IMG/VR virus record: IMGVR_UViG_3300017917_001123
Coordinates: 186,001 to 250,000 of that record
Direction: 5' to 3' (one strand)
From: a virus
Length of the DNA: 64,000 bases
A program made the position numbers and the translations under genes. The stretch's first letter is position 1. Every line of letters begins with the position of its first letter. Shown here one piece after another: positions 43,305 to 64,000 of the stretch. The notes beneath the pieces are model-generated. The model was not told the origin of the DNA and searched no databases. It saw only the letters and a list, made by a program, of their open reading frames with translations.

Positions 43305-43350
43305 CCCCTAAAGAATACCCGAGTGGGCCGTAGGGTTTCAGAAATTCCGG

Positions 43351-43379: not shown

Positions 43380-43388
43380 GTAGGCACA

Positions 43389-43493: not shown

Positions 43494-43514
43494 TAGGCTG
43501 CTCAAAATAGCCGC

Positions 43515-43546
43515 AAAAAAACCCTAGGCCAAATACCTCCTAGGGT
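43515..43546 (-). terminator. Rho-independent terminator (minus)
   Basis: 8-bp stem ACCCTAGG / CCTAGGGT (43521-43528, 43539-43546), 10-base loop, then an A run at 43515-43520 that is a T run on the minus strand. Stops transcripts coming from the tRNA. Confidence 0.85.
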
Positions 43547-43802
43547 CTCCCTGCCCGGGTCTACCGCAACGTGACTCCGAACCGTTTGCGCTCAGTCTAC
43601 TCTAGGCCCAGGGCCTTCGACTCTAGCACAGTGACTTCTGTGGCAATTCACAGCACCTAAGGTCTGTACTGTTACCAGTATTCTTTCACGCTAGGCGTTT
43701 AACCGCATTATCAGTCTAGAGCAATTCCGTCACCTTAGTCATCGGCCGAATTGTTAACTGTTTCGTGTGCTGTTACGGCACAAAATACTTAGCTCTGCCC
43801 GG
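43547..43802 (-). ncRNA. Candidate non-coding RNA downstream of the tRNA
   Basis: About 256 bases between the tRNA 3' end and a terminator, without a convincing ORF on either strand. It holds short inverted repeats such as CTGTG-AATTGC-CACAG and is on the same transcript as the tRNA. No known RNA family (tmRNA, 6S, RNase P) was recognised. Confidence 0.35.
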
Positions 43803-43879
43803 TGGTGGGCCCAACAGGACTCGAACCTGTGACCAAGCGATTATGAGTCGCCTGCTCTAACCAACTGAGCTATAGGCCC
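43803..43879 (-). tRNA. tRNA-Ile2 (anticodon CAU, AUA decoding)
   Basis: 77 bases with an encoded CCA. Acceptor GGGCCTA pairs with TGGGCCC; the D arm is GCTC-AGTTGGTTA-GAGC; the anticodon stem-loop GGCGA-CTCATAA-TCGCT has CAT; the T loop is TTCGAGT. The core from GAGC through TTGGTC is the same as bacterial tRNA-Ile2, whose C34 is changed to lysidine so that it reads AUA. An elongator or initiator Met tRNA is less likely. Confidence 0.9.
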
Positions 43880-43902
43880 CCGGGATTAATATTATACAGG
43901 AT

Positions 43903-44853
43903 TTACTTCCTTAATCCTAGTGCGGCCTGTAGCTTTTGGGCGGCATTCATAGTATTAGCAGTCTGCCCGTAGGGTGTATATGTTTGTCCCGCACCTGTGC
44001 CGTTGGGTTTTTCTGCTGATCCTAGGGCCTGTGCAGCGGGGTCACCAGTGGCCTGTGCAGCGGGGTTGGGTATGCCCGTGTCTACAAGCGATCTAACCTG
44101 TACACCTTCTGGATCCGCAATGTCTACGAAGGTCCAGTTGCCCAACAGCACAGGATTACCATCTACACGACGATTCCACTTACGCATATAGTACTTGTCT
44201 GCAGCGGGGTTCAGCCCGAGCTGGTCTACAAGGTTAGCAAACACAGAGTCGATCAGGATCATTGTCTCCGCACCTTCTAGAACTCGTAACCAATCGAATA
44301 CGGAATAACCTTCTAGCTCCCGCAACTCAATACATTGTACACCCGGTTCAACAATGGACAGATCAATGTCATAGCTCATATCACTAGCATGACCCTGATA
44401 TACCATATAGCGTTCTTGTGTGACTACACTATTATACAGTGATTTTTCTGCAGCGGGGTCCCGGTCTATACACTCGGCCAACTCCCACTTGTGACTAAAT
44501 GGTACTTCCGCTTGAGCATACTTGTATTGATCGAACTTAAACTGGGCAAAGTGACTCTTATTAGTACGCTCTGGATGACTACTCAAATACTGATACAACC
44601 ACAATTCCTCAGTTACTCCAATAGCGGTCAACTGCTTGTGCGGATTCTCATAAAAGAAAGCGCCATATTCATCTACGGGCACTGACATCCAACGAACCCA
44701 GGGAGCCGCTCGAACCATTTGTTGATAAAAGGGTTCACATACGGGCCAATATACTTCGTAGCCTCTACGTGTATATTCCTTAGCGATAGGTAGAGCAATG
44801 ATGATATCACCAAGTCCTCTACTCTGAATAAAACCAATTCTTTGTTGTGACAT
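43903..44853 (-). CDS. Glycosyltransferase family 9-like protein with PAA repeats
   Basis: 316 residues. The N-terminus IGFIQSRGLGDIIIALPIAKEY fits the GT9 start (GDxIxxxPxA). A C-terminal sugar-nucleotide region includes DWLRVLEGAETMILIDSVFANLVDQLG. The short motif [D/N]PAA occurs four times (near residues 132, 216, 267 and 275), each from the same 11-base DNA repeat in the same frame. The last ~50 residues are Pro/Ala/Gly-rich and disordered. It is likely a glycosyl transfer enzyme of unknown acceptor. Start with AAGGATC upstream. Confidence 0.65.
   Translation of the reverse strand: MSQQRIGFIQSRGLGDIIIALPIAKEYTRRGYEVYWPVCEPFYQQMVRAAPWVRWMSVPVDEYGAFFYENPHKQLTAIGVTEELWLYQYLSSHPERTNKSHFAQFKFDQYKYAQAEVPFSHKWELAECIDRDPAAEKSLYNSVVTQERYMVYQGHASDMSYDIDLSIVEPGVQCIELRELEGYSVFDWLRVLEGAETMILIDSVFANLVDQLGLNPAADKYYMRKWNRRVDGNPVLLGNWTFVDIADPEGVQVRSLVDTGIPNPAAQATGDPAAQALGSAEKPNGTGAGQTYTPYGQTANTMNAAQKLQAALGLRK
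44032..44042 (+). repeat. TGCAGCGGGGT repeat, copy 1
   Basis: Inside the GT9-like gene, encoding DPAA on the minus strand. Confidence 0.7.
44056..44066 (+). repeat. TGCAGCGGGGT repeat, copy 2
   Basis: Inside the GT9-like gene, encoding NPAA. Confidence 0.7.
44200..44210 (+). repeat. TGCAGCGGGGT repeat, copy 3
   Basis: Inside the GT9-like gene, encoding NPAA. Confidence 0.7.
44449..44459 (+). repeat. TGCAGCGGGGT repeat, copy 4
   Basis: Inside the GT9-like gene, encoding DPAA. Confidence 0.7.
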
Positions 44854-44872
44854 TTAAAGATCCTTATACGTG

Positions 44873-44883
44873 TGCAGCGGGGT
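44873..44883 (+). repeat. TGCAGCGGGGT repeat, copy 5 (intergenic)
   Basis: The same 11-mer in the gap between the GT9-like gene and the lipoprotein gene; a ninth-of-length partial copy CAGCGGGGT is at 45075-45083. Confidence 0.65.
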
Positions 44884-44891
44884 CCCTACTA

Positions 44892-45098
44892 TTAACATTC
44901 TGTAGGGTTCTGTAGACAATACTTACCACCCCATCCATCTGGCGCACGTATATACTGACGCGGACCATCACGCTCTAAGCAGTAGTCACGACCATAACAA
45001 CCTCGAGTAGTGATACAACCACTCAGTGATACCATAGCAAATATCACGATCAAAGATCTGCATGCATGCAAGAACAGCGGGGTATTAGCTTTCAACAT
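44892..45098 (-). CDS. Small lipoprotein
   Basis: 68 residues. A hydrophobic signal (SLIVIFAMVSLSGC) ends in a lipobox LSGC at ~24-27, giving a mature chain of about 42 residues with four more cysteines (GCYGRDYCLERD, YCLQNPTEC). Size and lipobox fit an outer-membrane lipoprotein such as a small spanin or an exclusion factor, but the usual proline-rich spanin region is missing. It overlaps the preceding gene by 14 bases. Confidence 0.6.
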   Translation of the reverse strand: MLKANTPLFLHACRSLIVIFAMVSLSGCITTRGCYGRDYCLERDGPRQYIRAPDGWGGKYCLQNPTEC

Positions 45099-45222
45099 AT
45101 ACTAAGAGATCTCCGTACTGTGACCGAGCTATAACAAGCGCATCATTATATGATTCAGCCAGTACGCCCACTCTAGTAGTGCCCCCGAACTGACTCTTTA
45201 CTGTAGCTGTGTATGTTTTCAT
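45085..45222 (-). CDS. Very small early protein (45 residues)
   Basis: Starts at ATG 45222 nine bases after an early -10 box; begins MKTYTATVKSQFGGTTRVGV and ends GDLLVYVES. Strand-helix-strand. Followed by the lipoprotein in an overlapping frame. Unknown function. Confidence 0.55.
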   Translation of the reverse strand: MKTYTATVKSQFGGTTRVGVLAESYNDALVIARSQYGDLLVYVES

Positions 45223-45231
45223 AGTGTATAT

Positions 45232-45260
45232 AGTATAGCACCACCGCATGGTTTTGTCAA
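45232..45260 (-). promoter_or_regulatory. Early sigma-70 promoter without GGTAAA
   Basis: TTGACA-17 bp-TATACT; probably reads through the 45-residue gene, lipoprotein, GT9-like gene and tRNA to the terminator at 43515. Confidence 0.8.
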
Positions 45261-45268
45261 TGATCAAT

Positions 45269-45320
45269 GGTAAAAACGGTGGAAAAAGGTGGTGAAAATG
45301 GTGGGGAAAGGTGGTAAAAT
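45269..45320 (+). repeat. G-rich tandem imperfect repeat
   Basis: Five units of the form GGTGG-N(0-3)-AAA in 52 bases next to an early promoter. The rest of the 45261-45480 gap has no gene and contains further G runs near 45385. Confidence 0.6.
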
Positions 45321-45480
45321 TCAGGGATTTTGGGGCAGTTTTTGTGGCTTTTCAGCGATTTTTAGGCTAAAAAATTTTGGATCAGGGTGGGGGTGACAGG
45401 CATTACTGCAATACTTTCTACTGTTTTTCACAGTTTCCTGACTGTATTACCAGGCCCCCTAGAGCCTAATACCATTGTGC

Positions 45481-45741
45481 TTACACGTAGTAAGTGCCCA
45501 TGATGTTCTCTACACAGTTGCTGAACTGTAGTAGGAATAGTGTTTGAAGTTTGCTGTTAGTAGGTAATTCCACTACCCACGCTATGTTTGAGTATGTTAT
45601 TCGTGTCTTATAGCAGTCCACTCCGATCTGCTGACAGTATAGAAAAATGTCATCTAGTCTACTGTTGATTCTGTATAGAGTGGTTTTTCTGACGGAAGTG
45701 CTTGAGTTTGTTTTTGACATGGACACGTACAGCAGAGTCAT
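45481..45741 (-). CDS. Hypothetical small protein
   Basis: 86 residues, overlapping the upstream gene by 83 bases (ATG 45720 would reduce this). Mixed helix and strand (LYRINSRLDDIFLYCQQIGV). Weak ribosome site. Coding is plausible but uncertain. Confidence 0.4.
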   Translation of the reverse strand: MTLLYVSMSKTNSSTSVRKTTLYRINSRLDDIFLYCQQIGVDCYKTRITYSNIAWVVELPTNSKLQTLFLLQFSNCVENIMGTYYV

Positions 45742-45889
45742 TACGCATAAGATCTACTATAACACCTATTAAGAACCCGACCATCCACGCATAGGCCAGA
45801 GCACGTACACGGTACTTCTTATTGGTAATTGTGCACATTTCCTGCCATAACCATTCGTGTTCCGGGTCTTTATATACGGGCTGGTTCAT
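45659..45889 (-). CDS. Small membrane protein
   Basis: 76 residues with one strong hydrophobic helix (ALAYAWMVGFLIGVIVDLM) and a basic cytoplasmic tail (VKNKLKHFRQK). Starts 5 bases after the preceding stop. Function unknown. Confidence 0.5.
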   Translation of the reverse strand: MNQPVYKDPEHEWLWQEMCTITNKKYRVRALAYAWMVGFLIGVIVDLMRNDSAVRVHVKNKLKHFRQKNHSIQNQQ

Positions 45890-45893
45890 CTGT

Positions 45894-46037
45894 TTAATTG
45901 TGCTTTACATATAGCACGTATTTGCCCCAACGCTCTTTGGCCATCATTTGTGCTTCTAGATAGCTACTGGCTTCCACTGTCTGCGTCCAGTTTTGTGTGG
46001 GCTGTGCTGGATTGTTTAGGACTACTGTATAAGTCAT
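45894..46037 (-). CDS. Very small protein (47 residues)
   Basis: ATG 46037 with GGAGC upstream; starts MTYTVVLNNPAQPTQNWTQT and contains a helix SSYLEAQMMAKERWGKY. Driven by a CTAAATA box on the minus strand. Unknown function. Confidence 0.6.
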   Translation of the reverse strand: MTYTVVLNNPAQPTQNWTQTVEASSYLEAQMMAKERWGKYVLYVKHN

Positions 46038-51634: not shown

Positions 51635-51847
51635 ATGAGAGCACATGAATTCATTACTGAAAAAACAGACCCAAAACTTTGTCGTTCTACCAAACGTCTT
51701 GGAAGAAGCGACCAGAGTAGTTGCGTGTCTCAGGGATTACGTCCACACCATAGTGGTAAAACTTTTAGAGGTCAGCCTATCAAGCACAAAAAGATAAAAG
51801 GCTCTAAGTATGGTGGACCACTTCCCGATTATGACGGTAAAGAGTAA
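51635..51847 (+). CDS. Small basic protein with capsid-targeting-like start
   Basis: 70 residues. The start MRAHEFITE resembles the T4 capsid-targeting sequence (cut after ITE, residues 7-9). The rest is very basic and Gly/Ser-rich (KLCRSTKRLGRSDQSSCVSQ, KHKKIKGSKYGG), so the mature ~61-residue peptide could be packed with DNA and injected. It has a leaderless late promoter. Role after entry unknown. Confidence 0.6.
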   Translation: MRAHEFITEKTDPKLCRSTKRLGRSDQSSCVSQGLRPHHSGKTFRGQPIKHKKIKGSKYGGPLPDYDGKE

Positions 51848-51892
51848 ACCATAAAACGTTTTTAACCACTTGGCCCCCGGCTAATTAAGATT

Positions 51893-52651
51893 ATGAAAAT
51901 AGTTTTAGTTACCGGGGGTTTCGACCCTATACACTCTGGACACATTGAATATCTTGAAGCCGCAAAGGAATTGGGCGATGAGTTAGTTGTCGGACTTAAC
52001 TCCGATGAATGGTTAGAACGTAAAAAGGGCAGAGCATTTATGCCCTTTGAAGAACGTCAAGCCATTATGCTTAGTATCAGACCAGTCAACTGGGTAATCA
52101 ACTTTGATGACGAAGACGGCTCTGCTAGATTTGCTATCCATGCGGTCCGTGAAAAGTTTCCGGATGCTACAATTATTTTTGCCAACGGCGGAGACCGCAC
52201 AGAAGATAATATTCCTGAAATGGATGTCGAAGATGACAATATTGAATTTGTATTTGGTGTTGGTGGCAAAAACAAAAAGAACTCTAGCAGTTGGATATTA
52301 GAAGAATGGAAGGCACCTAAAACAGAACGTCCTTGGGGATACTATCGTGTATTACATGAAGTACCTGGTACTAAGGTTAAAGAGTTAACAATTGAGCCTG
52401 GGCAGAGTTTGAGTATGCAACGCCATGCCGATCGAGCAGAGTTTTGGTTAGTAACAGAAGGGCAATGTGAAGTACGTCAACAGATGTCTAGTGGATACAC
52501 CATTCCGCCTGTTGTATTACAAACACACGACGGTATAGAAATATCAAAAGGCGAATGGCATCAACTAGTGAACCCTTTTAAGAAACCATGTCGCATTGTT
52601 GAAATACAATTTGGCGATCGATGTGTGGAAGAAGATATCGAGAGGAAGTAA
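51893..52651 (+). CDS. Cytidylyltransferase-like plus cupin fusion
   Basis: 252 residues. The N-terminal ~140 residues have the nucleotidyltransferase HxGH site in GGFDPIHSGH (8-17) and later NSSSWILEEW in place of the KMSKS-like loop. The C-terminal ~105 residues are a cupin of the mannose-6-phosphate isomerase type (RPWGYYRVLHEVPGTKVKEL, PGQSLSMQRHADRAEFW). It probably activates a sugar or alditol with CTP and changes or binds it. It starts the tailoring cluster with an SGNH hydrolase in TAATG overlap. Confidence 0.75.
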   Translation: MKIVLVTGGFDPIHSGHIEYLEAAKELGDELVVGLNSDEWLERKKGRAFMPFEERQAIMLSIRPVNWVINFDDEDGSARFAIHAVREKFPDATIIFANGGDRTEDNIPEMDVEDDNIEFVFGVGGKNKKNSSSWILEEWKAPKTERPWGYYRVLHEVPGTKVKELTIEPGQSLSMQRHADRAEFWLVTEGQCEVRQQMSSGYTIPPVVLQTHDGIEISKGEWHQLVNPFKKPCRIVEIQFGDRCVEEDIERK

Positions 52652-53544
52652 TGTATAAGTTTATCGATCCAAAGATTAACTCAGGCGACAAACTTATTAT
52701 TGGAATTGGCGACAGTTACACACAGGGTATTGGTGCTTACACAGATGCTACTTGGAAGAAACACAATGGCCGTATTCCTGTATATACTAGCGATAAAGAT
52801 CTAATTAAAGAGCAGTACGAAGGAAGTTGGGTCAATCAAATACAATCTTTGATGCCGGGTTGGAAAGGCCTTAACTTAGGTGTAGCAGGAACAGGCAATC
52901 GTTCGGCATTGAAAGAATTATACTTCCATGAACCAACGATAGCAAAAGCTAGCGAAGCCGTTGTTGTTTATCTGTTAAGTGGGTTTGAACGTTTTGATTT
53001 TATCTCAAAAGAGTTTGTCAGCGAACACGCACACTTTGAAGCTATGTGGCCAAACTATTGGGATACAGGCTGTAAAGTTCCTGAGCTGTGGAAAGCCTAT
53101 GCTGACCATGTACACTCAGATAGATTTATGGCCGGCGAGGCAATGTTAAACATTTTAGAAGCACAGATGTACTGCCAAGCTAAGGGATTTAAACTCTTGG
53201 TCATTAGCGCATTTGATACTCGCTTTCAACGTAGATGGTTTGATAGAAATTTAGTACAAGGTCTGTTTAATCTAAAGCCAACAGGAACAAACATAGACTT
53301 TATAGATCAGTTTGATTGGTCACAGGCAGTATATCCACAAGGGTGTTCTACAATTATTCATTTGTTAACTAGACTAGAAGGACACGATGATTCTATGGCC
53401 GAAGGCAGATTCTACGGTCATTATAGTAAATTGGATTTTCCATCAGAATATATCACCACTTGTGTTCACCCAACCCGCAAAGGTCATGCTATAATAGCAG
53501 AAGAAGTTGTAAAAGCAATTAAAGAACGCGGCTATGAAAATTGA
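52651..53544 (+). CDS. SGNH/GDSL-family hydrolase-like protein
   Basis: 297 residues from ATG 52651 (TAATG with the preceding gene). IGIGDSYTQG (block I Ser), LNLGVAGTGNR (blocks II/III) and CVHPTRKGHAIIAEE (block V, Asp replaced in part: HPTRKGH) fit the SGNH fold. Probably an esterase or acetyl transfer enzyme on a glycan or peptide; catalytic Asp is not clear. Confidence 0.7.
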   Translation: MYKFIDPKINSGDKLIIGIGDSYTQGIGAYTDATWKKHNGRIPVYTSDKDLIKEQYEGSWVNQIQSLMPGWKGLNLGVAGTGNRSALKELYFHEPTIAKASEAVVVYLLSGFERFDFISKEFVSEHAHFEAMWPNYWDTGCKVPELWKAYADHVHSDRFMAGEAMLNILEAQMYCQAKGFKLLVISAFDTRFQRRWFDRNLVQGLFNLKPTGTNIDFIDQFDWSQAVYPQGCSTIIHLLTRLEGHDDSMAEGRFYGHYSKLDFPSEYITTCVHPTRKGHAIIAEEVVKAIKERGYEN

Positions 53545-54127
53545 TACTGAACACTTACATTATTGGATGATGGCTATTAGACAAAGTCCAGATCCTATTC
53601 GTACAATGGATGCCTTTTGGCAAGGACAAATGAAAAGCAAGGAATGGCTTGTTGATGAACTCCGTGCTTCTGTCAACAGTCCTGTGAGCATTGACATACA
53701 CGGCGGCTGGGTAGGGGTCTTAGCAAGTATGATATTCCAAAGCGATATCATTACCAAACACATTCGTAGTGTTGATATTGATCCTACATGCGAGCCTATT
53801 GCTACAATGATGAATAAAGGCGAAGAGATAGTAGGTAAGTTCCGTGCTGTTACCGCCGACATGTGTGCTATCCGTAGCGATGCTGATGTTGTTATTAATA
53901 CAAGTTGTGAACACATTACACAAGAACAATTTGACTTTTGGAAGACTGGCATTCCTCACAATAGTCTTGTTGTACTACAGAGCAACAATTACAATATACC
54001 AGAACATGTTCGTATTGCTAATAGCCTAGATGAGTTTAACAAACAATGCGACCTACGTATTGTTTATTACAAAGGCGAACTTAAACTGCCCAACTATACT
54101 AGATACATGATTATTGGTTACGCATGA
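53534..54127 (+). CDS. Class I methyltransferase-like protein
   Basis: 197 residues. IDIHGGWVGVLASMI (motif I variant), IRSVDIDPTCEPIATM (motif II) and RAVTADMCAI, INTSCEHIT. It overlaps its neighbours and lies between the SGNH hydrolase and a radical SAM gene. Acceptor unknown. Confidence 0.6.
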   Translation: MKIDTEHLHYWMMAIRQSPDPIRTMDAFWQGQMKSKEWLVDELRASVNSPVSIDIHGGWVGVLASMIFQSDIITKHIRSVDIDPTCEPIATMMNKGEEIVGKFRAVTADMCAIRSDADVVINTSCEHITQEQFDFWKTGIPHNSLVVLQSNNYNIPEHVRIANSLDEFNKQCDLRIVYYKGELKLPNYTRYMIIGYA

Positions 54128-55179
54128 CATACCCTTCAGACATTAAAGCACTAGCAATGGAACTAACTGACAAGTGTCAGGCTAGTTGCCCTATGTGTCT
54201 GCGTAATCATTTTGGTGGAGCAGAAAGAGATATTGTCAACAATGTAGAAATAACATTGGCTGACTTCAAGCAATGGTTTCCTCCAGAGTTTATTTCTAAC
54301 TTAGAAAACTTTTATTGCTGTGGTAACTTAGGCGATCCTGCTATTGCTAAAGACTGTTTAGAGATATATCAATACGTCCGTAGTTGTAATCCTACTACAC
54401 GAATGGCTCTACACACAAATGGCAGTATGCGTAATCCTGAATGGTGGGCTAAGTTTGCTGAGATCAACACACAGATTATCTTTGGCATTGACGGGTTTAA
54501 AGGAGAGCATGAACTGTATCGCAAAGGAACTAATTGGGATAAGATAATTGCCAATGCTCGTGCGTTTATAGATGCCGGTGGCGATGCTAGATCTGATACC
54601 ATTGTATTCAAACACAACGAAGCACGTATTGATGAACTAAAGGCTTATCTAGAAAGCATCGGCTTTAAGGGTGTTAATGTATTTGCTACTAATCGGTTTT
54701 ATTCTCTGCCTGTGTTTCCTGTACAAGATAGAAACGGTAATCACATCTACGACTTAGAGCCCCCTACAGATCCAAAGTGGCATCCTGTAGTGTTTAAGCC
54801 TAACACAGTAAAGCTAGTTCAAAAAGAAGAATATCAAAAGCTAATTGATCACAGCGTTATTGAACCTAGCTGTGCTATTAAGAAAGAGATATACATCACA
54901 GCCAAGGGCGATGTGTATCCTTGTTGCTGGGCAGTTAACCATAACGACTACGATCACAAAGAACTAGATCCCAATCTTTCTATCCTGCGTGACAGATTAG
55001 TAAAGTCTACATTTGACCTAATGAGTGATATTGGGTTGCCTAACCTACACGGCAGTAATATCTTTACTGTAATGAGCAAGCACAATTGGCAAAGCAAGTT
55101 GCCTAAGCATTGGGATACAGACAAGAAGTTAATCTGTATTAAGAACTGTGCTAAGAACTTAAAACAACTCGCAGAGTAA
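54124..55179 (+). CDS. Radical SAM/SPASM-type enzyme 1
   Basis: 351 residues. The [4Fe-4S] site CQASCPMC is C18-x3-C22-x2-C25. GNLGDPAIA, LHTNGSMRNPEWWA and GIDGF follow in the TIM barrel. The C-terminal part carries SPASM-like cysteines (SCAIKKEIYITAKGDVYPCC, ICIKNC). Same spacing and strong likeness (VFKHNEARIDELK) to the gene at 63142. It likely makes a 5'-deoxyadenosyl radical to modify a peptide or sugar. Ends convergent with the oxygenase at 55159. Confidence 0.9.
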   Translation: MTYPSDIKALAMELTDKCQASCPMCLRNHFGGAERDIVNNVEITLADFKQWFPPEFISNLENFYCCGNLGDPAIAKDCLEIYQYVRSCNPTTRMALHTNGSMRNPEWWAKFAEINTQIIFGIDGFKGEHELYRKGTNWDKIIANARAFIDAGGDARSDTIVFKHNEARIDELKAYLESIGFKGVNVFATNRFYSLPVFPVQDRNGNHIYDLEPPTDPKWHPVVFKPNTVKLVQKEEYQKLIDHSVIEPSCAIKKEIYITAKGDVYPCCWAVNHNDYDHKELDPNLSILRDRLVKSTFDLMSDIGLPNLHGSNIFTVMSKHNWQSKLPKHWDTDKKLICIKNCAKNLKQLAE

Positions 55180-55833
55180 TTCTACTCCGCGCTGTCTAAT
55201 TCTTTCAATAACAGGGTTAATGACTTCATGGTCGCAGTTTAGGAATAGTTCCTTTTCGTTTGGTGATTCAAAGCCAGTGACCTGTTTGCTCTTAACAAGT
55301 TTGTTGATAGTGCCCATTAGTTCAATATAACTAGCCTGCTTCCAATCAATAGGACCATCTACTACTTTAAGATGTACTCCTTGTTTATTTGATTCGAAGT
55401 GTGGCAATAGAACTCTAATGTTAAGATGTATTCTAGGCACACCACCCCAGTTAGCCGCAACGTGTGTTTGACTAGTGTCCATATACCATGTGCGTCCGTC
55501 TGCGGGGATATGATGTAGGCGATTGTTTGTAATATCTACAAGGTAACTGTGTTCGTTAGTTATAATTGGTAAATGTATTCTATCATCTGGATCGGTGTGT
55601 GCTGTATAACTTTCTCCACTACCTAGTGTTAATAGTCTTGCTTGTCCTATATTAGGTAACACAGCTAATACATTGCCTAAAGGTGTGCCAACAAACTCTT
55701 CCTTTGTTTGCCAAGGGTCGTTAAAGAATTTACCAGTGGGCCTATTAAGATCGTATCGCTTATCTAATGTAAGGCTAAGCACTTGATCTACAATAGGTTG
55801 AATTGGAAATTTGTGTTGGAGTTCTGTTAGCAT
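55159..55833 (-). CDS. Aspartyl beta-hydroxylase-like oxygenase 1
   Basis: 224 residues. HxD H79/D81 (YTAHTDPDDRIHLP), PADGRTWYMDTSQTH with distal H123, and R133 (VPRIHLNIRV) fit the Asp/Asn beta-hydroxylase family. It is related to the gene at 62483. Overlaps the radical SAM gene on the other strand by 21 bases. Substrate unknown. Confidence 0.8.
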   Translation of the reverse strand: MLTELQHKFPIQPIVDQVLSLTLDKRYDLNRPTGKFFNDPWQTKEEFVGTPLGNVLAVLPNIGQARLLTLGSGESYTAHTDPDDRIHLPIITNEHSYLVDITNNRLHHIPADGRTWYMDTSQTHVAANWGGVPRIHLNIRVLLPHFESNKQGVHLKVVDGPIDWKQASYIELMGTINKLVKSKQVTGFESPNEKELFLNCDHEVINPVIERIRQRGVELLCELF

Positions 55834-55840
55834 TTAAATA
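55833..55840 (+). promoter_or_regulatory. Late promoter TTTAAATA, leaderless
   Basis: Five bases (TATTT) before ATG 55846 of the QueC-like gene. Confidence 0.68.
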
Positions 55841-55848
55841 TATTTATG
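55841..55848 (-). promoter_or_regulatory. Late promoter CATAAATA (minus), 7 bases from ATG
   Basis: Serves the oxygenase at 55833. Only 12 bases lie between the two divergent start codons, so the two promoters overlap each other's gene starts. Confidence 0.65.
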
Positions 55849-56553
55849 GACCTAAAAATACCCTTTGATACAAGCTGGCGTAGTGTTGCTATTGCCATGA
55901 GTGGCGGAGCAGACAGCACAATGTTAGCATACCTGATTTGTAATAACATTCCTAGCAATCGGTTGTTTACTGTTCATGTAATCAATAATATCCGTTGCTG
56001 GAAAACTAAACCTTGGCAACAATACGACTTTAATAGTGTATTGCGTTGGCTGGAGGATCGCTTTCAAAACATTACCTTTGTTGTACATAGAAACTTTGTT
56101 CCACCTGAAATGGAGTATGCTTATGGTACAATGATTACAGACGAATATGGTAAAACAGTTAGTGGCGATACTATCGAACTGCGGGCCTTTGCTGAGTATG
56201 TTTGCCTTGCTCAGGATGTTGATGCGTACTTCAATGGTGTTACCAAAAATCCAAAAGATATAGAAGGAATGCCTGCTCGTGATGTAGAGCCTACAGAAGA
56301 CAACAAACATTTAGAGCAAATGGTACATATGGGCAAATTAGTTTACCACCCATTTAGATTTGTAGATAAGAGCGAAATTGTGTTACAATATAAAGCATTG
56401 GGTTTAGATGATCTCTTTAGTTTAACTAGAAGTTGCGAAGGAGAATTTGAAAATATCACATACAAGACATATACTCCTGGACAATATGTTCCTGTATGCG
56501 GCAAATGCTTTTGGTGTAAAGAACGTGAGTGGGCAATTGAACGAACGGTTTAA
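55846..56553 (+). CDS. QueC/ExsB-like PP-loop ATPase
   Basis: 235 residues. PP-loop SGGADS at 19-24 for ATP, and a C-terminal zinc-site candidate (RSCEGEFENITY, VCGKCFWCKER) like QueC (7-cyano-7-deazaguanine synthase). FolE, QueD and QueE were not seen in the window, so it might act alone or in another pathway, for example amidation or adenylation. Its 3' end overlaps the next gene. Confidence 0.75.
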   Translation: MDLKIPFDTSWRSVAIAMSGGADSTMLAYLICNNIPSNRLFTVHVINNIRCWKTKPWQQYDFNSVLRWLEDRFQNITFVVHRNFVPPEMEYAYGTMITDEYGKTVSGDTIELRAFAEYVCLAQDVDAYFNGVTKNPKDIEGMPARDVEPTEDNKHLEQMVHMGKLVYHPFRFVDKSEIVLQYKALGLDDLFSLTRSCEGEFENITYKTYTPGQYVPVCGKCFWCKEREWAIERTV

Positions 56554-57802
56554 AACATTTTGTATGCATCCCTTTACGGGATTAGCAACACGCGAAGACG
56601 GCGCAGTTAAGATCTGTTGCCGTAGTCTTCCTATTGGCTGGATACAAGAACAAAGCCTAGAAGAAATATGGAACGGTGAAAAGATGCGTGAAGTTCGCCG
56701 CCAAGTACAAAACGGAGAACGACCTGATGTATGTAAGCCTTGTTTTGATTTAGAAGATCAAGGAGTTGAAAGTCTACGTCAGCGTCACATCAAAGGCGAC
56801 ATCCCAGAAGCACGTATTAATCTATATCCTAGTGCTCTTACCAAGTTGACTAACAATTACACAATGCCTTTTGAATTTCCTACAATGGAAATCAAACTAA
56901 ACAATCTATGTAATTTAAAATGTCGAATGTGTAACCCTTTAGACAGCACTAATTGGAAAGACTGGGATGCTGTTGTTCCGTTCTATAAAAAAGAAAACAA
57001 TTATCTTGTTCCTACAATTGACAGGCTTGTAGATACACCAGGCAAATACATTGGTCCTTTTGATGACAGCGATAATTGGTGGAAGAGTTTTGAGAAACTA
57101 ATTCCACATTTTAAACGAGTAGAGTTTGCCGGCGGCGAACCCTTGATGGATCCTAACCACTACAAGATACTAGACATGCTAAAGCCCTACGGCAAGAACA
57201 TGGAAATCAAATATGCTACAAACGGAACTACTCTAGGAATTAGCAAAGGAAGAACTATTCATGACTATTGGCCACATTTTAAGTCAGTTGCCGTTAACGT
57301 CTCTTTGGACGGCATTGGCTCTGTTTATGACTACATTCGGACTAACAGTAGCTTTAGCCAAGTTGAAGAAAACATTAAAGAAATCAAATCAATCCCAAAT
57401 GTAAGTAGGGTAGTTGGGGCATTTACAGCACAAGCTGGTAACATACTACAAGCCGCAGACTGTATAGATTATTTCTTAAACAAAATGGGCATTGTATTTT
57501 ATTCACACAGAGTGAGTTATCCAAACGTGTTGTCCGCACAGGTATTGCCTAATGAACTAAAACAAGTAGCAATTGATAGATTGCGAGAAGTTAGTATGCG
57601 TGTGCCTACATTTGATATTGTAAAACAACATCCTATCCTAGAAAAGATTACACAGCAACAGATACAAGACAACATTAACTATCTACAGGCTAAGGACGAA
57701 AGCGATCGTTGGCAAGAGTTCTTAGACTTTAACTTTGCTTTAGATGCCACACGTGGACAAAGTTTGTTAGACGCTGTTCCAGAATTTAAGGCGTATGTAT
57801 GA
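56537..57802 (+). CDS. Radical SAM enzyme 2 with N-terminal twitch domain
   Basis: About 421 residues. Start codon uncertain: TTG 56537 (used here), GTG 56525 or ATG 56564; an ATG at 56447 lies deep in the QueC-like gene. The N-terminal block FCMHPFTGLATREDGAVKICC with C...C pairs (VCKPCF) is the auxiliary cluster (twitch), and C125-x3-C129-x2-C132 (CNLKCRMC) is the SAM cluster. EFAGGEPLM and NVSLDG belong to the barrel. Related to the gene at 60449. Confidence 0.85.
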   Translation: MNERFKTFCMHPFTGLATREDGAVKICCRSLPIGWIQEQSLEEIWNGEKMREVRRQVQNGERPDVCKPCFDLEDQGVESLRQRHIKGDIPEARINLYPSALTKLTNNYTMPFEFPTMEIKLNNLCNLKCRMCNPLDSTNWKDWDAVVPFYKKENNYLVPTIDRLVDTPGKYIGPFDDSDNWWKSFEKLIPHFKRVEFAGGEPLMDPNHYKILDMLKPYGKNMEIKYATNGTTLGISKGRTIHDYWPHFKSVAVNVSLDGIGSVYDYIRTNSSFSQVEENIKEIKSIPNVSRVVGAFTAQAGNILQAADCIDYFLNKMGIVFYSHRVSYPNVLSAQVLPNELKQVAIDRLREVSMRVPTFDIVKQHPILEKITQQQIQDNINYLQAKDESDRWQEFLDFNFALDATRGQSLLDAVPEFKAYV

Positions 57803-58605
57803 GATTGTCTTTGTGGGCAGGCAATACTGAACTAACTTTCAAAGTTCGTGATACAGATATAGCACAACGTTGGGCACAGGAAGTTGCTAAGAACTATCCA
57901 CTATATGAAACAGATAGATTTCAAGGATGGCCCACAGATAAAGATATTAAATGGTACAAAGAACAGCTACAGCATCAAGTAGATGTTATCTTCGAGCATA
58001 GAGGATATCCGAGACTAGAAGTAACTACAATAGATCAAAACACACTAAACTATCTACATAAGATATTTGAAACTGTTCGTGGAGAGATTAACACAGGCAC
58101 AGACATCTACATGACAGGAGATGCTAATTTTCAATATGCTGTAGATAGACTTAATATTCTAGTACACGAATGCGAACACTTTATGCGTAACACAGCCTAC
58201 CCTAGCATTGTTGTTACATTTAAGGATAGACCTAGAATACCTTTACTAGAAGAAGACTACAATCACTTTACCTTTGCTTGGGAATACGGTGCTGTCTACA
58301 TTAACTATTGTGAAGTAGGCAAGCCTATTCTAGATGTTATCAAAGACGGTGATGACCTAGTAGGCGAAGATAACATTCGTCCGTTAGAATATTATAGTTC
58401 TGACTTTATGGTAAAGCTGGGTCCTAGCACAAACAGCGACGACTGGCATAAGAAAGCAGAAGTTGTATCTAAATGGCTACAGAACCATCCACGTAAGTTT
58501 AAACACACATCGCTAGGACTTATTCCTGTAGCAGACTTAGATCCCGTACAGTTCTTTGACTTATCAAAGATAGAACCAAAGGTTACTCGTGTATGTATAG
58601 TGTAA
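57799..58605 (+). CDS. Unrecognised cluster protein with HExxH-like motif
   Basis: 268 residues, ATGA overlap with the radical SAM gene and 13 bases with the next one. LVHECEHFMRN at ~121-131 has HExxH spacing, seen in metallopeptidases, but the rest does not show a peptidase pattern. DYNHFTFAWEYGAVYINYCEVGKPI is a conserved-looking region. Its tight placement among radical SAM genes suggests a partner or substrate-binding protein. Confidence 0.5.
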   Translation: MRLSLWAGNTELTFKVRDTDIAQRWAQEVAKNYPLYETDRFQGWPTDKDIKWYKEQLQHQVDVIFEHRGYPRLEVTTIDQNTLNYLHKIFETVRGEINTGTDIYMTGDANFQYAVDRLNILVHECEHFMRNTAYPSIVVTFKDRPRIPLLEEDYNHFTFAWEYGAVYINYCEVGKPILDVIKDGDDLVGEDNIRPLEYYSSDFMVKLGPSTNSDDWHKKAEVVSKWLQNHPRKFKHTSLGLIPVADLDPVQFFDLSKIEPKVTRVCIV

Positions 58606-59489
58606 CTAGTCGATGGCCGCATCAGAATAGTATTAAGGTAGAATGGAACCTTGGCAAGCGTTGTAACTACGACTGCTCCTACTGCCCCAGTTCTATACAC
58701 GATAATACAAGTCCGCACACTGACATAGAGATATTAAAGTCTGTAGTAGACAAACTAATGACTTTGGGTAAACCTATTCGTTTAAGTTTTACAGGTGGCG
58801 AGCCATGCGTACATCCTAAATTTGCTGACCTTGTACGATATGCCAAACAACAAGGAGTAAGTTGGATCAGTGTAACAACTAACGGCACATTGCCTTACGA
58901 GTTCTATGCTAGCCTACCTGTTGATCAGTATGTATTCAGCATACACTTAGAATACGATTGGCGCCGGGTGTTTAATACTGTAGAAAGTGTAGTAGACTTA
59001 ACCAAGAGTAAAGTCATTGCCCAAATTATGGCACATCATGATTACATGGATGCGGCCAGACAGTTACGATCTAGATGTTTGTTAGCAGAGATTCCAAATA
59101 CAGTTAGACGCATACGTTGGACAGAAGGCGACCACGATCTATTTGATGACATGCGTTATCATCCAGACGATTTAAAGTGGATCAAAGAACAAGAAGCAAC
59201 AGTACAAGGTAATTGTGTTGTTGACGATAAGATAATACACGCTAACGATGTAATTAAACTACATCTAAACAAATTTAAAGGTTGGACTTGTCACGCAGGT
59301 ATAGAAAGCCTAATGATAAATTGGGACGGTGACGTACATCGTGCTACTTGTAGAGTAGGTGGTAGTCTAGGCAACATATACGAAGGTACCTTTGTTGTCC
59401 CTAGCGATCCAGTCACTTGTGACCGTAACTTCTGTACCTGCGCGGCAGACATTCCATTAACCAAATATGATCCAAACCACAGCAATTAA
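58593..59489 (+). CDS. Radical SAM enzyme 3
   Basis: 298 residues. C24-x3-C28-x2-C31 (CNYDCSYC), SFTGGEPCVHPKF and TTNGT. C-terminal cysteines (TCHAGIESLMINWDGDVHRATC, CDRNFCTC) fit an auxiliary cluster. Close relative of the next gene. It probably acts on a peptide, tRNA or sugar; unknown. Confidence 0.9.
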   Translation: MYSVTSRWPHQNSIKVEWNLGKRCNYDCSYCPSSIHDNTSPHTDIEILKSVVDKLMTLGKPIRLSFTGGEPCVHPKFADLVRYAKQQGVSWISVTTNGTLPYEFYASLPVDQYVFSIHLEYDWRRVFNTVESVVDLTKSKVIAQIMAHHDYMDAARQLRSRCLLAEIPNTVRRIRWTEGDHDLFDDMRYHPDDLKWIKEQEATVQGNCVVDDKIIHANDVIKLHLNKFKGWTCHAGIESLMINWDGDVHRATCRVGGSLGNIYEGTFVVPSDPVTCDRNFCTCAADIPLTKYDPNHSN

Positions 59490-60579
59490 TCTAAGCACGG
59501 ACGAAGGCATGATGGTTACCTGGGATATAGGTAAGCGTTGTAACTACGACTGTACCTATTGTGATGCTACACGACACACAAACACAAGTCCACACGCTAG
59601 TCTAGAAGAACTTGTTGAAACGTTTGAGTTTATTCGTGCTTGGACGGATCTATACAACAGCAAACGTAAAACTCCTACCTACATTAACATTAACTTCACA
59701 GGCGGAGAGCCTACAGTTAATCCAAACTTCTGGAAACTTGTAGATTACATTAAACAGTTTCCTAACTTCCATATGGGCCTAACAACTAATGGCACATGGG
59801 ACATAAGACGCTTGCCTAACATTATAGATAACTTTGTAGGTGTTACTGTTAGTTGGCATGCCGAAGCTGATCAAAAGTTACGAACACGGGCATTGAACAA
59901 TATACTTGCTATCAGTAAGAGTCATTTGTGGCTACAGGTAAATGTAATGCTACACACAGACTTATGGGACGAAACAATGGAAGCCTGTAAGTTTTTAGAT
60001 GACAACAATATCAATTACAATCCTGTGCCTATTGGTGATGGCCCGGATACTGCTACATGGGTTGCGGATAAGAACGGAGTAATGCGTAGAACTACGCATA
60101 CCTATACAGCAGAACAACAGCAATGGTTCTTTAACAAAATGAACATCACTGCCAAGATAGCAGAAGCAAAGAAAGGCAACAAGGTAGGACGCACTTGTTG
60201 TGGAGGACGTTGCCTAACTGCTAAAGTAGACAACGAATGGCAACCAGTTAAGTTAGTTAATACAGAGTTTAAAGAATGGAACTGTATGGTTGATTGGTAC
60301 TTCCTACACATTGATCAAGAGGTAGGAGAAGTATACCATCATCAGACTTGTCAAGCCCTGCGTGGAGGTAAGCGCGGTGCTATTGGTAAGTTAAGCGATA
60401 AGACTGTTCTACTAGATAATCTGCGTCAACTACTAGAACAGCCTAGCATTACGCCTGTTGTATGTCCAAATCAGCGATGTGGATGTGGGATGTGTGTTCC
60501 GAAAGCAAAGAGCTTTGATGACTTTGAACTGATGTGGAACAATCTAATAAGTGTGCCAGTTCAGGGAACACAGTCTTAA
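59467..60579 (+). CDS. Radical SAM enzyme 4
   Basis: 370 residues. C25-x3-C29-x2-C32 (CNYDCTYC), NFTGGEPTVNPNF and LTTNGTW. A C-terminal cysteine-rich part (TCCGGRC, CPNQRCGCGMC) would hold auxiliary clusters. Overlaps the upstream gene by 23 bases and the convergent radical SAM gene by 131 bases. Confidence 0.9.
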   Translation: MIQTTAINLSTDEGMMVTWDIGKRCNYDCTYCDATRHTNTSPHASLEELVETFEFIRAWTDLYNSKRKTPTYININFTGGEPTVNPNFWKLVDYIKQFPNFHMGLTTNGTWDIRRLPNIIDNFVGVTVSWHAEADQKLRTRALNNILAISKSHLWLQVNVMLHTDLWDETMEACKFLDDNNINYNPVPIGDGPDTATWVADKNGVMRRTTHTYTAEQQQWFFNKMNITAKIAEAKKGNKVGRTCCGGRCLTAKVDNEWQPVKLVNTEFKEWNCMVDWYFLHIDQEVGEVYHHQTCQALRGGKRGAIGKLSDKTVLLDNLRQLLEQPSITPVVCPNQRCGCGMCVPKAKSFDDFELMWNNLISVPVQGTQS

Positions 60580-61921
60580 AGTCTGTTCCTCTAATACTAT
60601 CTAAGTTCTTAATGTATTCAGCAAACGCAGGCAATTGACTGCTATGGTCTTCGCTGTCCATAAAGTCTAACACCGCTTGCCAACGCTTCCACCCGTATGG
60701 ATTGATCTTCCAGAAGTCTTCGTCCTGTCTGTAGTTCTCGTGTAGCCAGTTGGCTAGTTCACCAAACAGTTTGCGTACTTCTGCTTTGTCTGCTTGTGGC
60801 AAGCATTTGATGCTTAAGAACGTAGGCAAGTACAGCAAGTGCATGTTAACTAAGCCACCGCCCATCTGTACATCTCCCGGAACAAGTCCTAGATTAATCT
60901 TCTTAAAGTTCTCTTTCACCTTCCAACGGATAAAGTCTGGTAGATGTTTAACATTAAGGATTTGAATAGCAGTAGCAATACTAACCTGTATGTTGTCTGG
61001 AGTGTTGTCTAGTTTGTGTAGGTTCTTAACAATAGTATCCCAATCGCTAGGATAACGAATATAATAGTTGCGAGCATCTGTAGCATCTAAACTTACAGCA
61101 AACTTTACTTTAGAAAAGTTCTTCCATAAGTCAATAGTTTCGTCGTCTAGCAATAATGCGTTACTATTGTAACGAATAAGGATCTTGTCTGCGTAGCCTT
61201 GTCTAATAATCTCTTGTAGGAACTTCTTGTGTTCCTTAATCATTAACGGCTCGCCTCCGGCAAAGTAAACTTGTTTTAAGTTTGGAATCTGTGCGTTAAT
61301 CTGTTCCCAGAAGTCCGGGTTCTCGTACCATACATTATTAAATGTATCTGCGTCCCAACGCATCTGTTCTGCTACAATTGGAAAGGTTGTGCGCTTTAAT
61401 AGTTTATCATGGTCCTGTACCCAACGACTGCTATCGTGCGGTGAGCACATCACACACTTGAGGTTACAGGTATGCCCTAGTCGTAGATCTAAGTAGGTTA
61501 GTTTATCTGGAACAACTCCATCGACTGTGTTAGCAACAAGTTCTTCTAGATCAATGCCGTCATTCATCCATGTGTATGTTTCCCATAGGCGTTTACTGAT
61601 AACATCTTTGTCTTCTTCGGCAATACACTTTGAACAGCTAGCAGGGATTTGTCCAGCAAGCATTGTCTTACGAACATCGCGCATGTATTCGTTGTTCCAT
61701 GCTTCTAAGGGCTTGCTGTTACCAAAGTTAGCAGGTTGTCCTGATTCGTTCTTAACTAGGCCTACTGTATGATCTGTGCCTGCTCCGCTAGCGTTAGCCG
61801 AACAACATAGTCGCATATCGCCGTTAGGTCTTGTAGCAAAGTGAATCCAAGGTAGTACGCAGAAGGTACGACTACCTGTCTTCTCTTCAAGTATTTGGTA
61901 GAATTTTTCTTTTCGTGTCAT
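60449..61921 (-). CDS. Radical SAM enzyme 5 with N-terminal twitch domain
   Basis: 490 residues. Twitch block FCVLPWIHFATRPNGDMRLCC at ~20-40, C96/C99 (SCSKC), SAM cluster C152-x3-C156-x2-C159 (CNLKCVMC), YFAGGEPLM. The last ~35 residues (after VFPEL) lie over the end of the convergent gene and have no counterpart in the gene at 56537, so the C-terminus may have been lengthened by a lost stop. Confidence 0.85.
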   Translation of the reverse strand: MTRKEKFYQILEEKTGSRTFCVLPWIHFATRPNGDMRLCCSANASGAGTDHTVGLVKNESGQPANFGNSKPLEAWNNEYMRDVRKTMLAGQIPASCSKCIAEEDKDVISKRLWETYTWMNDGIDLEELVANTVDGVVPDKLTYLDLRLGHTCNLKCVMCSPHDSSRWVQDHDKLLKRTTFPIVAEQMRWDADTFNNVWYENPDFWEQINAQIPNLKQVYFAGGEPLMIKEHKKFLQEIIRQGYADKILIRYNSNALLLDDETIDLWKNFSKVKFAVSLDATDARNYYIRYPSDWDTIVKNLHKLDNTPDNIQVSIATAIQILNVKHLPDFIRWKVKENFKKINLGLVPGDVQMGGGLVNMHLLYLPTFLSIKCLPQADKAEVRKLFGELANWLHENYRQDEDFWKINPYGWKRWQAVLDFMDSEDHSSQLPAFAEYIKNLDSIRGTDFKTVFPELAHLLDCSTSVQSHQSSLLSEHTSHIHIADLDIQQA

Positions 61922-62486
61922 TGCACATATTCGAAGTTAGTCGCTTGATGCTTTCATCTGTAGCACCAAACTTAGTTTTAATCTGCTCTATGGTAAAAGG
62001 AGTTAACTTAAATTCAAAGTCTACGTTATTATAACACGAATTGTTAATCCAGTCATTAATTACTTTATAAACATCGGTAAAAGGAATACCTGTATCTGTG
62101 CTAACCGCATCTTCTAACATTGAAATGGTTAAATGTAATAGAGTTACTTTTGGATCTAGGCTCAGTGAACGGCAACGTTCTGCTAGCAGTTTCTTTTTAC
62201 GGCTGTAGTCGCTCTGTATAAGTTGGTCATACTGCCCTGCGATACTGCCCATAACTACAAGATTAGTTTTACCAGCAAGCGCATCTAGCAAAGGCAGTTG
62301 TCCTGCGTTAGTGTTCAAGATTACTATGTCGCAAGTTTCTGCTACTGGTATAACCTTGCTAACGTCTTGCTCTAAGTCTAATCCTGAAAGTCTGCTAGCA
62401 CCAATAACTTCGTGCCCGTCCTTAATAAATTGACCAAAGAGGTACTTACCTAGCCCACTAGTGTGGCCTGTAATGAATATTCTCAT
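61887..62486 (-). CDS. Short-chain dehydrogenase-like protein
   Basis: 199 residues. TGHTSGLG (7-14) is the NAD(P) site, NTNAG and the active YxxxK fits YSRKKK near 93. Overlaps its neighbours (ATGA upstream, 35 bases downstream). Likely reduces or oxidises a small-molecule intermediate. Confidence 0.75.
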   Translation of the reverse strand: MRIFITGHTSGLGKYLFGQFIKDGHEVIGASRLSGLDLEQDVSKVIPVAETCDIVILNTNAGQLPLLDALAGKTNLVVMGSIAGQYDQLIQSDYSRKKKLLAERCRSLSLDPKVTLLHLTISMLEDAVSTDTGIPFTDVYKVINDWINNSCYNNVDFEFKLTPFTIEQIKTKFGATDESIKRLTSNMCNDTKRKILPNT

Positions 62487-63100
62487 ATCTGTCCTGTTAT
62501 TTTTAATAGAGCAGGCATGTCTTCTCTCTTAACTGAAAAGAACATGTGTACTCTAGGAGTTGTATCTTGGTTCTTAACGCTGTGCATTAATGTTGTATCT
62601 AATGCCCAAGAGGATCCATCTGCCGGATAGTGTTCCCAACTTATAGGTTGTCTGTTCTCGTCGTCCCACGTGAAGAAACTCTTAGGAGGACTGTAAATTG
62701 GAAAGTGTATGTGCCAAGCATCGTCGGTATGCGACTCGATATAGTTTCCCCCGGGTGTTTCTGATATGCCTAGTCTATAGGCCATTGGGATCTTTTCTAA
62801 CAATCGTTCGGCAATACCGAAAACCATATCAGTTCTTTTCTTGCCGTCTGTAAAGTCGCTGGTTAAAACATTCCACGGAGCACATATCTGATCGTCATTC
62901 TTTAGATATGTTGTCAAAGCCCAACCGCTGGCCATCTTTGTTAAATCGATGTTTGGATCGTTGTAGGCTTCGCGCTTGATGTATTGCTTCTGTTCTGTCG
63001 CAACCCATTTACGATCAGCAAACTTAGTCTTAATGATATCATAGAACTCTCTTAGTTCGTTAATATCTGCTGTGATGTTTAACTTTATTTGCCTATCCAT
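62483..63100 (-). CDS. Aspartyl beta-hydroxylase-like oxygenase 2
   Basis: 205 residues. H124-x-D126 (YIESHTDDAWHIHFP), PADGSSWALDTTLMH with H173, and R183 (TPRVHMFFSV). Related to 55159. Leaderless late promoter TATAAATA. Confidence 0.8.
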   Translation of the reverse strand: MDRQIKLNITADINELREFYDIIKTKFADRKWVATEQKQYIKREAYNDPNIDLTKMASGWALTTYLKNDDQICAPWNVLTSDFTDGKKRTDMVFGIAERLLEKIPMAYRLGISETPGGNYIESHTDDAWHIHFPIYSPPKSFFTWDDENRQPISWEHYPADGSSWALDTTLMHSVKNQDTTPRVHMFFSVKREDMPALLKITGQI

Positions 63101-63105
63101 GAAAA

Positions 63106-63113
63106 TATTTATA
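63106..63113 (-). promoter_or_regulatory. Late promoter TATAAATA (minus), leaderless
   Basis: Perfect octamer, five bases (TTTTC) before ATG 63100; divergent with 63129. Confidence 0.8.
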
Positions 63114-63128
63114 GGTGCTCTAGCCTAG

Positions 63129-63136
63129 CTTAAATA
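63129..63136 (+). promoter_or_regulatory. Late promoter CTTAAATA, leaderless
   Basis: Five bases (TTTGT) before ATG 63142. Confidence 0.7.
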
Positions 63137-63141
63137 TTTGT

Positions 63142-64000
63142 ATGGCCTTCTACAACACAATCAAAGAGTTAGACATAGAACACAGCGCAGTTTGTAATGC
63201 GGCCTGTCCTCAGTGTACAAGAGAGCTTCGCCCCGGAGACTACAGTTGGTTTAACCAAACATGGCTTCCTACAGAGTTTTACCAAGAGCGTATTCCACAA
63301 TATGTATTAGACAACTTAGAAACTATCTTCTTTAGTGGCATGGTAGGCGATCCTTGTGCGGCTCCTAACTTCTTAGAAGTGTGTAAGGTTATTAAAGAAC
63401 GTGCTCCGCATATCCATATTAAGATTAGTACTAATGGAGGTATGCGTAGTCCTGCTTGGTGGGCAGAGCTTGCTAGTATATTAGGGCAAGGTAGTTGGGT
63501 TCGTTTTGCTATTGACGGACTAGCAGACACTAATCATATCTATCGTGTTAATGTAAGTTGGAATAAAGTTGTTGCTAACGTAGATGCGTTTATTAAATCT
63601 GGCGGAGAAGCAGAATGGCAGTATATTGTGTTCAAACACAACGAGCATCAAGTAGAAGAAGCAAAGAAATTATCTGAAGATATGGGCTTTGCTAGATTTG
63701 TTATTAGACGCAGTCATCGCTTCTTGCTAGATGCTCTATTTGAAACACAGTACGTGGGTATCTCTGTTCCTACTAATGACAAATATGTACATCCGTTGAT
63801 TCTACAAAAGAAGAAAGTGTTTAACATTGTAGATGCGTTAAAAGTATCCAACGATAGTAGTGTAACTTGTGAAGTACAAGGACGCAAGAGTGTTTACATA
63901 TCAGCAGATGGTTGGGTGTTTCCTTGTGTATATACAGGAACATGTGTTCACTTAATGAAGACACGCAGTCTACATGACGGTTGGACTAAGTTATGGGAAG
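63142..64000 (+). CDS. Radical SAM enzyme 6 (3' end outside window)
   Basis: At least 286 residues, frame open to the window end. C18-x3-C22-x2-C25 (CNAACPQC), as in the gene at 54124 (same residue numbers), ISTNGGMRSPAWW and AIDGL, then VFKHNEHQVEEAKKL. A close paralog of radical SAM enzyme 1. No stop is seen, so the C-terminal part is unknown. Confidence 0.85.
   Translation, partial: MAFYNTIKELDIEHSAVCNAACPQCTRELRPGDYSWFNQTWLPTEFYQERIPQYVLDNLETIFFSGMVGDPCAAPNFLEVCKVIKERAPHIHIKISTNGGMRSPAWWAELASILGQGSWVRFAIDGLADTNHIYRVNVSWNKVVANVDAFIKSGGEAEWQYIVFKHNEHQVEEAKKLSEDMGFARFVIRRSHRFLLDALFETQYVGISVPTNDKYVHPLILQKKKVFNIVDALKVSNDSSVTCEVQGRKSVYISADGWVFPCVYTGTCVHLMKTRSLHDGWTKLWE

Follow-up and report, generated by a model that had tools for sequence, protein, structure and literature searches.

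The window considered here, a 64-kb stretch of viral DNA, belongs to a 331.6-kb record (331,570 bp) of an uncultivated giant phage; coordinates in the window are preceded by w, and plain numbers refer to the record. The island part of the window begins with a fusion of a cytidylyltransferase-like domain and a mannose-6-phosphate-isomerase-C/cupin domain, of nucleotide-sugar type (w51893..52651, + strand; PF01467 4e-16, PF01050 6e-21), which also matches the heptose adenylyltransferase family phrog_7878 (7e-29) and agrees with the nucleotidyltransferase-cupin fusion named in a preliminary description of this DNA. The two methyltransferase-like or hydrolase-like genes of that description fared differently: w53534 (w53534..54127, + strand), a core protein of 197 aa, has a confidently predicted class-I SAM-dependent transferase fold (pLDDT 96) with no Pfam or PHROG family found, while the SGNH/GDSL-like assignment of w52621..53544 (+ strand; start possibly at 52651) is weak and under the cut-off (PF00657 E 8.5e-4). 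Both proposed beta-hydroxylase-like oxygenases lie above the PF05118 cut-off as Asp/Asn beta-hydroxylase-like 2OG oxygenases (w55159..55833, − strand, 26.0 bits; w62483..63100, − strand, 34.1 bits), and so does, for PF06508, the QueC-like PP-loop ATPase with its C-terminal Cys motif (w55846..56553, + strand; 3.8e-5, 23.7 bits versus a cut-off of 22). The putative SDR could not be sustained, since the weak Rossmann/SDR-like gene at w61887..62486 (− strand) reaches only E 0.006 with PF00106 and 0.006 with PF01370, under the cut-off. A 268-aa protein (w57799..58605, + strand) has no family above the cut-offs of Pfam and PHROG. To the left of the island lie two 2OG-Fe(II) oxygenases (w46564..47193 and w48931..49683, both + strand; PF13640 3e-16 and 6e-12) and a methyltransferase (w47266..47823, + strand; PF13489 2.4e-7, above the cut-off). 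An IscU-like gene (1.6e-55) and two A-type Fe-S carriers adjoin the island; a NodU-like carbamoyltransferase, a class-III aminotransferase, methyltransferases, 2OG oxygenases and GT-A-like proteins are encoded in or beside it. The dense packing noted previously is borne out, with 54 ORFs in 45.7 kb, a total of 429 bp of intergenic sequence and a largest gap of 81 bp. Late-type promoters had also been proposed, but the window has three copies of TATAAATA, where 3.5 would be expected, and just one of them (63106, − strand) falls inside the claimed region; this is a chance frequency and leaves late expression unsupported.

The main feature of the island is its radical SAM (rSAM) genes. The preliminary description counted six and suspected that the cluster continued beyond 64 kb; it does, and the count was an understatement. 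All 15 PF04055 matches in the record lie at 240157-277001 (36.8 kb), with none in the rest of the 331,570 bp. Such clustering has a chance probability of ~7e-13 if the 15 genes were placed independently; when duplication is allowed for by counting only five subfamilies, our own arithmetic gives ~8e-4. The PF04055 core with an intact CxxxCxxC in 15 of 15 assigns them to the radical SAM superfamily, and their predicted activity is the generation of a 5'-deoxyadenosyl radical by SAM cleavage. The Pfam cut-off is exceeded by 14 of them; 276030 falls under it, yet scores 313 bits with N_Twi_rSAM (NCBIfam NF033640). All six in the window carry the motif and score 37.0-50.9 bits with PF04055 (cut-off 29.5), and they form the three pairs described before: w54124 (w54124..55179, + strand; SPASM-like; 37.0 bits) with w63142 (w63142..64000, + strand, ending at 250194 beyond the window; 40.5 bits) at 31% identity (E 7e-44), w58593 (w58593..59489, + strand; 46.1 bits) with w59467 (w59467..60579, + strand; 50.9 bits) at 28% (E 2e-23), and w56447 (w56447..57802, + strand; start uncertain, 56447-56537) with w60449 (w60449..61921, − strand) at 26% (E 2e-35). 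The members of the last pair score 324 and 397 bits with NF033640, whose curated cut-off is 170 bits and which matches six of the 15 essentially at full length (242-397 bits); the other nine fall under its cut-off. The name of this family carries no reaction. In the N_Twi_rSAM set A1, the N-terminal cysteines C21, C96 and C99 are invariant. Three further rSAM enzymes of the island are cobalamin-type. Median dN/dS values of 0.05-0.16 in five core families show purifying selection.

With w60449 as query, 67 related loci were recovered from IMG/VR, and they show a linked set, as the preliminary description had supposed, rather than the individually scattered genes that would have refuted it: w60449 is accompanied by w53534 in 65 of the 67 loci, by w54124 in 64, and by w58593 and 270153 in 55 each. 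Every one of 30 fragments holds several rSAM genes (5-13 per record). The core stays linked across phages at 62-86% identity; accessory genes are confined to close relatives, and repertoires and flanking backbone genes vary. Megablast against annotated phages found no close relative, tblastn with 270153 and 274180 gave no match, and N_Twi relatives in annotated phages reach only 23-29% identity; the cobalamin-type 253348 had no match when used as a query against viral contigs. No literature was found on huge phages with multiple rSAM genes. The QueC-like gene, together with FolE elsewhere in the genome, would fit hypermodification of DNA or RNA of the 7-deazaguanine or hydroxymethyl-pyrimidine type. 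This is highly improbable, however, given that the QueC-like gene is present in just about half of the loci, that no QueE equivalog was assigned, and that the record has neither a thymidylate-synthase-type gene nor a TGT/DpdA-type gene (PF01702), of which a very divergent DpdA might escape detection.

The module is shared with bacteria. On chromosomes of Bdellovibrionota (islands L099, L103, L109, L110 and others), the trio w60449/w54124/270153 is linked in unrelated housekeeping contexts, often with genes for SAM-transferase-fold and GT-A-like proteins, so that the linkage holds for bacterial chromosomes too; w60449 shares 45-49% identity with its homologues there. The trio also has GT2 proteins beside it, and some of these contain a CxxxCxxC themselves. 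Of 291 Bdellovibrionota genomes sampled, 17 have a gene of the 270153 type, and the genomes with islands contain no phage terminase. Two metagenome-assembled genomes labelled Rickettsiales (L113) and Gammaproteobacteria (L135) were dropped as bacterial carriers because they contain terminases of this phage type, and a 3.5-kb contig labelled Thermoplasmata (L098; 65% identity) was left out as archaeal evidence. A heterogeneous collection of auxiliary genes gathered by recombination, with no common pathway, would account for the variable flanks and repertoires and the narrow distribution of accessory genes, but is very unlikely in view of a core under purifying selection that stays linked among phages and across the boundary between phage and bacterium. 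A pathway to a diffusible metabolite, a modified lipid or a cofactor that helps infection is likewise unlikely. It would suit the cobalamin-type enzymes, whose best, sub-threshold matches are lipid- and P-methyl-type enzymes (257558 weakly resembles TrsS/Tes), as well as a Trp-halogenase-like flavoenzyme near the island and the fold of w53534, for which nicotianamine synthase ranks first by Foldseek (3fpe, 2e-10, TMq 0.58). Those enzyme matches, however, are at superfamily level and far under cut-offs, and the minimal chromosomal islands carry GT-like genes, not transport or assembly-line genes.

The most likely explanation, to which we assign a probability of about 0.45, is that this hypervariable island of a PA5oct-related jumbo myophage tailors a glycan of the infected-cell surface or of the virion, the substrate being putative. 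A glycan is favored by a core protein of GT-A-like type, by GT2 proteins that occur in the islands on bacterial chromosomes, and by tailoring genes of sugar type. The GT-A-like fold of 274180 is predicted (pLDDT 93), and its PDB matches are mostly glycosyltransferases; against this reading, the GT-A match has a moderate score (best E 2e-4, TMq 0.37-0.42), neither a flippase nor a polymerase could be recognised, non-twitch rSAM proteins are under every NCBIfam cut-off, no model assigns a sugar substrate to any enzyme here, and the QueC and Asp/Asn-hydroxylase families can act on proteins too. Two other observations also count against it: a 344-kb relative with 13 rSAM genes has no orthologue of 270153, and in relative G020 the IscU/A genes do not adjoin the island. 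Pfam GT models had no match among the scanned island proteins, and profile searches of the PDB with the two uncharacterised core proteins gave nothing useful.

PF05118 proteins hydroxylate Asp/Asn residues in proteins, and twitch/SPASM-type rSAM enzymes are frequent among peptide and protein maturases; SkfB is among the matches here. These features, with a tail/fibre-like gene to the right of the island (289958, tail/minor-tail-like), would suit modification of a virion protein, such as a tail fibre, or of a host protein by the rSAM enzymes and hydroxylases. We regard this as doubtful, since Pfam scans found no RRE/PqqD-type domain, the trio on chromosomes is accompanied by GT-like proteins, and the island has no room for a separate precursor gene. 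A RiPP precursor was rejected on the same ground, for the island rather than for the whole genome. The genes 280784 and 281670 have no assignment. Of the targets suggested in the preliminary description (virion protein, glycan or peptide), the class thus remains reasonable, with a glycan preferred and a peptide encoded by a precursor gene in the island unsupported.

In the glycan-tailoring model, the core (the rSAM proteins w60449, w54124, w58593, w56447 and 270153, with w53534 and often 274180) would make or alter a glycan or an activated sugar, to which exchangeable accessories (further rSAM enzymes, the carbamoyltransferase, aminotransferase, methyltransferases and 2OG oxygenases) could add decoration. 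The product, an unusual sugar structure, would then most probably change glycans on the surface of infected cells, in host takeover or superinfection exclusion, or a glycan of the virion; the timing of expression is likewise putative, and the phage IscU/A-type proteins may aid Fe-S cluster supply. Radical SAM enzymes perform difficult chemistry and require costly Fe-S clusters; therefore, the presence of fifteen in a single island of a phage implies that their product is valuable. Dozens of viral contigs from metagenomes share the gene set, as do some chromosomes of predatory bacteria, and its linked core is a small, testable set with bacterial counterparts that could lead to new chemistry on glycans or proteins and to a new way in which phages remodel their host or themselves. 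Tentatively, the rSAM core with the SAM-transferase-fold and GT-A-like proteins may represent an undescribed dedicated pathway, perhaps of new radical glycan chemistry, exchanged between jumbo phages and predatory Bdellovibrionota and expanded in phages to as many as 15 rSAM genes.

Two published systems are comparable and, together with the tail/fibre-like 289958, support the glycan reading. The T4-like Campylobacter phages CP220 and CPt10 (Timms et al. 2010, PMC2853527) belong to another lineage and have 11-12 rSAM genes, fewer than the 15 found here, five of them within an exchangeable block. The CP220 module adjoins an amidinotransferase and two nucleotide-diphospho-sugar transferases, and the profile of the w54124 family finds three of its proteins (gp080, gp083 and gp084; 3e-27 to 6e-23). 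Homologous rSAM genes thus stand beside nucleotide-sugar transferase folds in both, with a moderate score for the GT fold here; the CP220 stretch, however, matches the 270153 profile only weakly (6e-8) and has no match to the w53534 and 274180 profiles, and orthology does not extend to the non-rSAM core. The second system is the large, hypervariable host-recognition cluster of pelagimyophages (mean 44.6 kb), which contains tail fibres, many glycosyltransferases and rSAM cassettes and has been argued to modify the O-chain (PMC7029224). Gene homology to these phages is limited to one distant match, to phage Mosig (25%). As in that cluster, content and place are hypervariable among relatives of the island, in which accessory genes and flanks vary; here, in contrast, the 15 rSAM genes dominate, and a conserved core is held in common with Bdellovibrionota.

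Fifteen radical-SAM (rSAM) genes with matches to PF04055 lie at genome positions 240157-277001, and none was found in the remainder of the 331,570-bp virus record (IMG/VR) that carries the window at positions 186001-250000. CxxxCxxC is present in all 15. Genes are designated here by their start in the window (w) or, as bare six-digit numbers, by their start in the genome. The six rSAM genes and the three pairings among them named in the preliminary description were all borne out, and its suggestion that the cluster might run beyond 64 kb proved correct. Six genes belong to the N_Twi_rSAM type (w56447, w60449, 262058, 263184, 264367, and 276030), three have cobalamin-type models as best matches (250191, 251753, and 253348), four are non-twitch (w54124, w58593, w59467, and w63142), and 257558 and 270153 complete the set. 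The record has three PF05118 genes, and every one of them also falls inside this island. Assuming uniform independent placement, the probability that all 15 rSAMs would cluster by chance is near 7e-13; because rSAM genes have duplicated, the figure obtained by our own arithmetic after collapse to five subfamilies (about 8e-4) is preferred. That the island genes share no common pathway is considered quite improbable.

Intergenic DNA amounts to 429 bp in 45.7 kb with 54 ORFs, and strands alternate across the island, implying several transcription units. Across the island and its right border, the other genes encode a methyltransferase (256829), a class-III aminotransferase (260895), a NodU-like carbamoyltransferase (272623), 2OG oxygenases, a tryptophan-halogenase-like flavoenzyme (283679), and a tail-like protein (289958). 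A 2OG-oxygenase-like gene follows the flavoenzyme, the two spanning genome 283679-285645 (L017:14679-16645). The phage also encodes Fe-S carriers at genome 282581-283670 (L017:13581-14670), namely an IscU-like protein (282968), 89% identical to that of a relative (G020), and two A-type carriers (282581 and 283344).

Model matches to sheath, UvsX, terminase, single-strand binding protein, and helicase identify the virus as a T4-like jumbo myophage. The closest relatives with annotation are Pseudomonas phages of the PA5oct/Paride type, with which it shares 50% terminase identity; no DNA-level similarity across the island was found among annotated phages. Elsewhere in the genome, long ORFs are sparse at window positions 30000-46000, where GC reaches 0.505 compared with approximately 0.40 around it and where a tRNA-Met is located (window 43803-43879), and FolE adjoins a UDP-glucose/GDP-mannose dehydrogenase-like gene (L179, genome about 72-73 kb).

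A search with w60449 retrieved 67 IMG/VR loci; identity is 62-86% in 66 and 25% in the remaining one (L097). When all island proteins were compared with these loci by tblastn, the loci with a match numbered 65 for w53534, 64 for w54124, 55 for each of 270153 and w58593, 46 for w56447, and 36 for the QueC-like gene, counts that are lower bounds since many contigs are short fragments. Accessory genes, among them 253348, 250191, and the aminotransferase, were restricted to a few loci. Each of the 30 records searched contained 5-13 rSAM matches. Backbone genes are common to the phage and five longer relatives, and the genes flanking the island differ. A 344-kb relative (terminase identity 57%) carries 13 rSAM genes that are more scattered, and no orthologue of 270153 was found in it. 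Median dN/dS values (ungapped NG86 estimates) were 0.047 for w60449, 0.12 for w54124, 0.13 for w53534, 0.16 for 274180, and, from only four pairs, 0.16 for 270153. A gene annotated as "hypothetical" in Vibrio phage K566 (L177:17349-18620) matches the N_Twi profile at 5e-25.

Two core proteins lie outside the rSAM set. The predicted structure of w53534 (pLDDT 96) is a class-I SAM-transferase fold; ranked by E-value, its structural matches are led by nicotianamine synthase (2e-10, TMq 0.58), and methyltransferases follow closely. The PDB matches of 274180 (pLDDT 93) are mostly glycosyltransferases with moderate scores; of its putative DxD aspartates, D59 is invariant and D57 almost so.

When 84,980 genomes were searched with a profile for bacterial counterparts, w60449 relatives at 45-49% identity were found on Bdellovibrionota chromosomes, on contigs of up to 936 kb. 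Genes of the 240124 (w54124), 270153, 274180, and 239534 (w53534) types are linked to them, no phage terminase was found in the Bdellovibrionota genomes carrying the island, and the housekeeping neighbourhoods of minimal islands differ. The 270153-type gene occurs in 17 of 291 sampled genomes of the phylum and is therefore an accessory trait. Pairwise distances among w60449, w54124, and 270153 correlate (r 0.50-0.83), as expected for joint travel, a correlation that shared ancestry alone also gives. Bdellovibrionota members of the w53534 family (L103:8030-9271 and L105:7797-8753) have an N-terminal extension. GT2 proteins are also present in the bacterial islands; some bear their own CxxxCxxC (L107:13684-15186, L102:14171-15676, and L111:5128-8076) and may be rSAM-glycosyltransferase fusions. 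The MAGs of two further loci, L113 (labelled Rickettsiales) and L135 (labelled Gammaproteobacteria), include contigs with terminases of this phage type and are regarded as phage-contaminated.

The island may serve the tailoring of a surface or virion glycan (probability roughly 0.45). This reading is favoured by the glycosyltransferase-like partners in both phages and bacteria and by the nucleotidyltransferase-cupin, the carbamoyl-, amino-, and methyltransferases, and the tail-like neighbour. Modification of a protein or peptide is a doubtful alternative, a small-molecule or lipid pathway is less likely than that, and modification of nucleic acid is the least probable of all the readings. Glycan tailoring is in line with the published interpretation of pelagimyophage host-recognition clusters (PMC7029224). 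A parallel is found in CP220, a phage of another lineage, whose rSAM module was suggested by its authors to confer a metabolic benefit on the host (PMC2853527). Three CP220 rSAMs (gp080, gp083, and gp084) match the w54124 profile, and two nucleotide-diphospho-sugar transferases adjoin the module.
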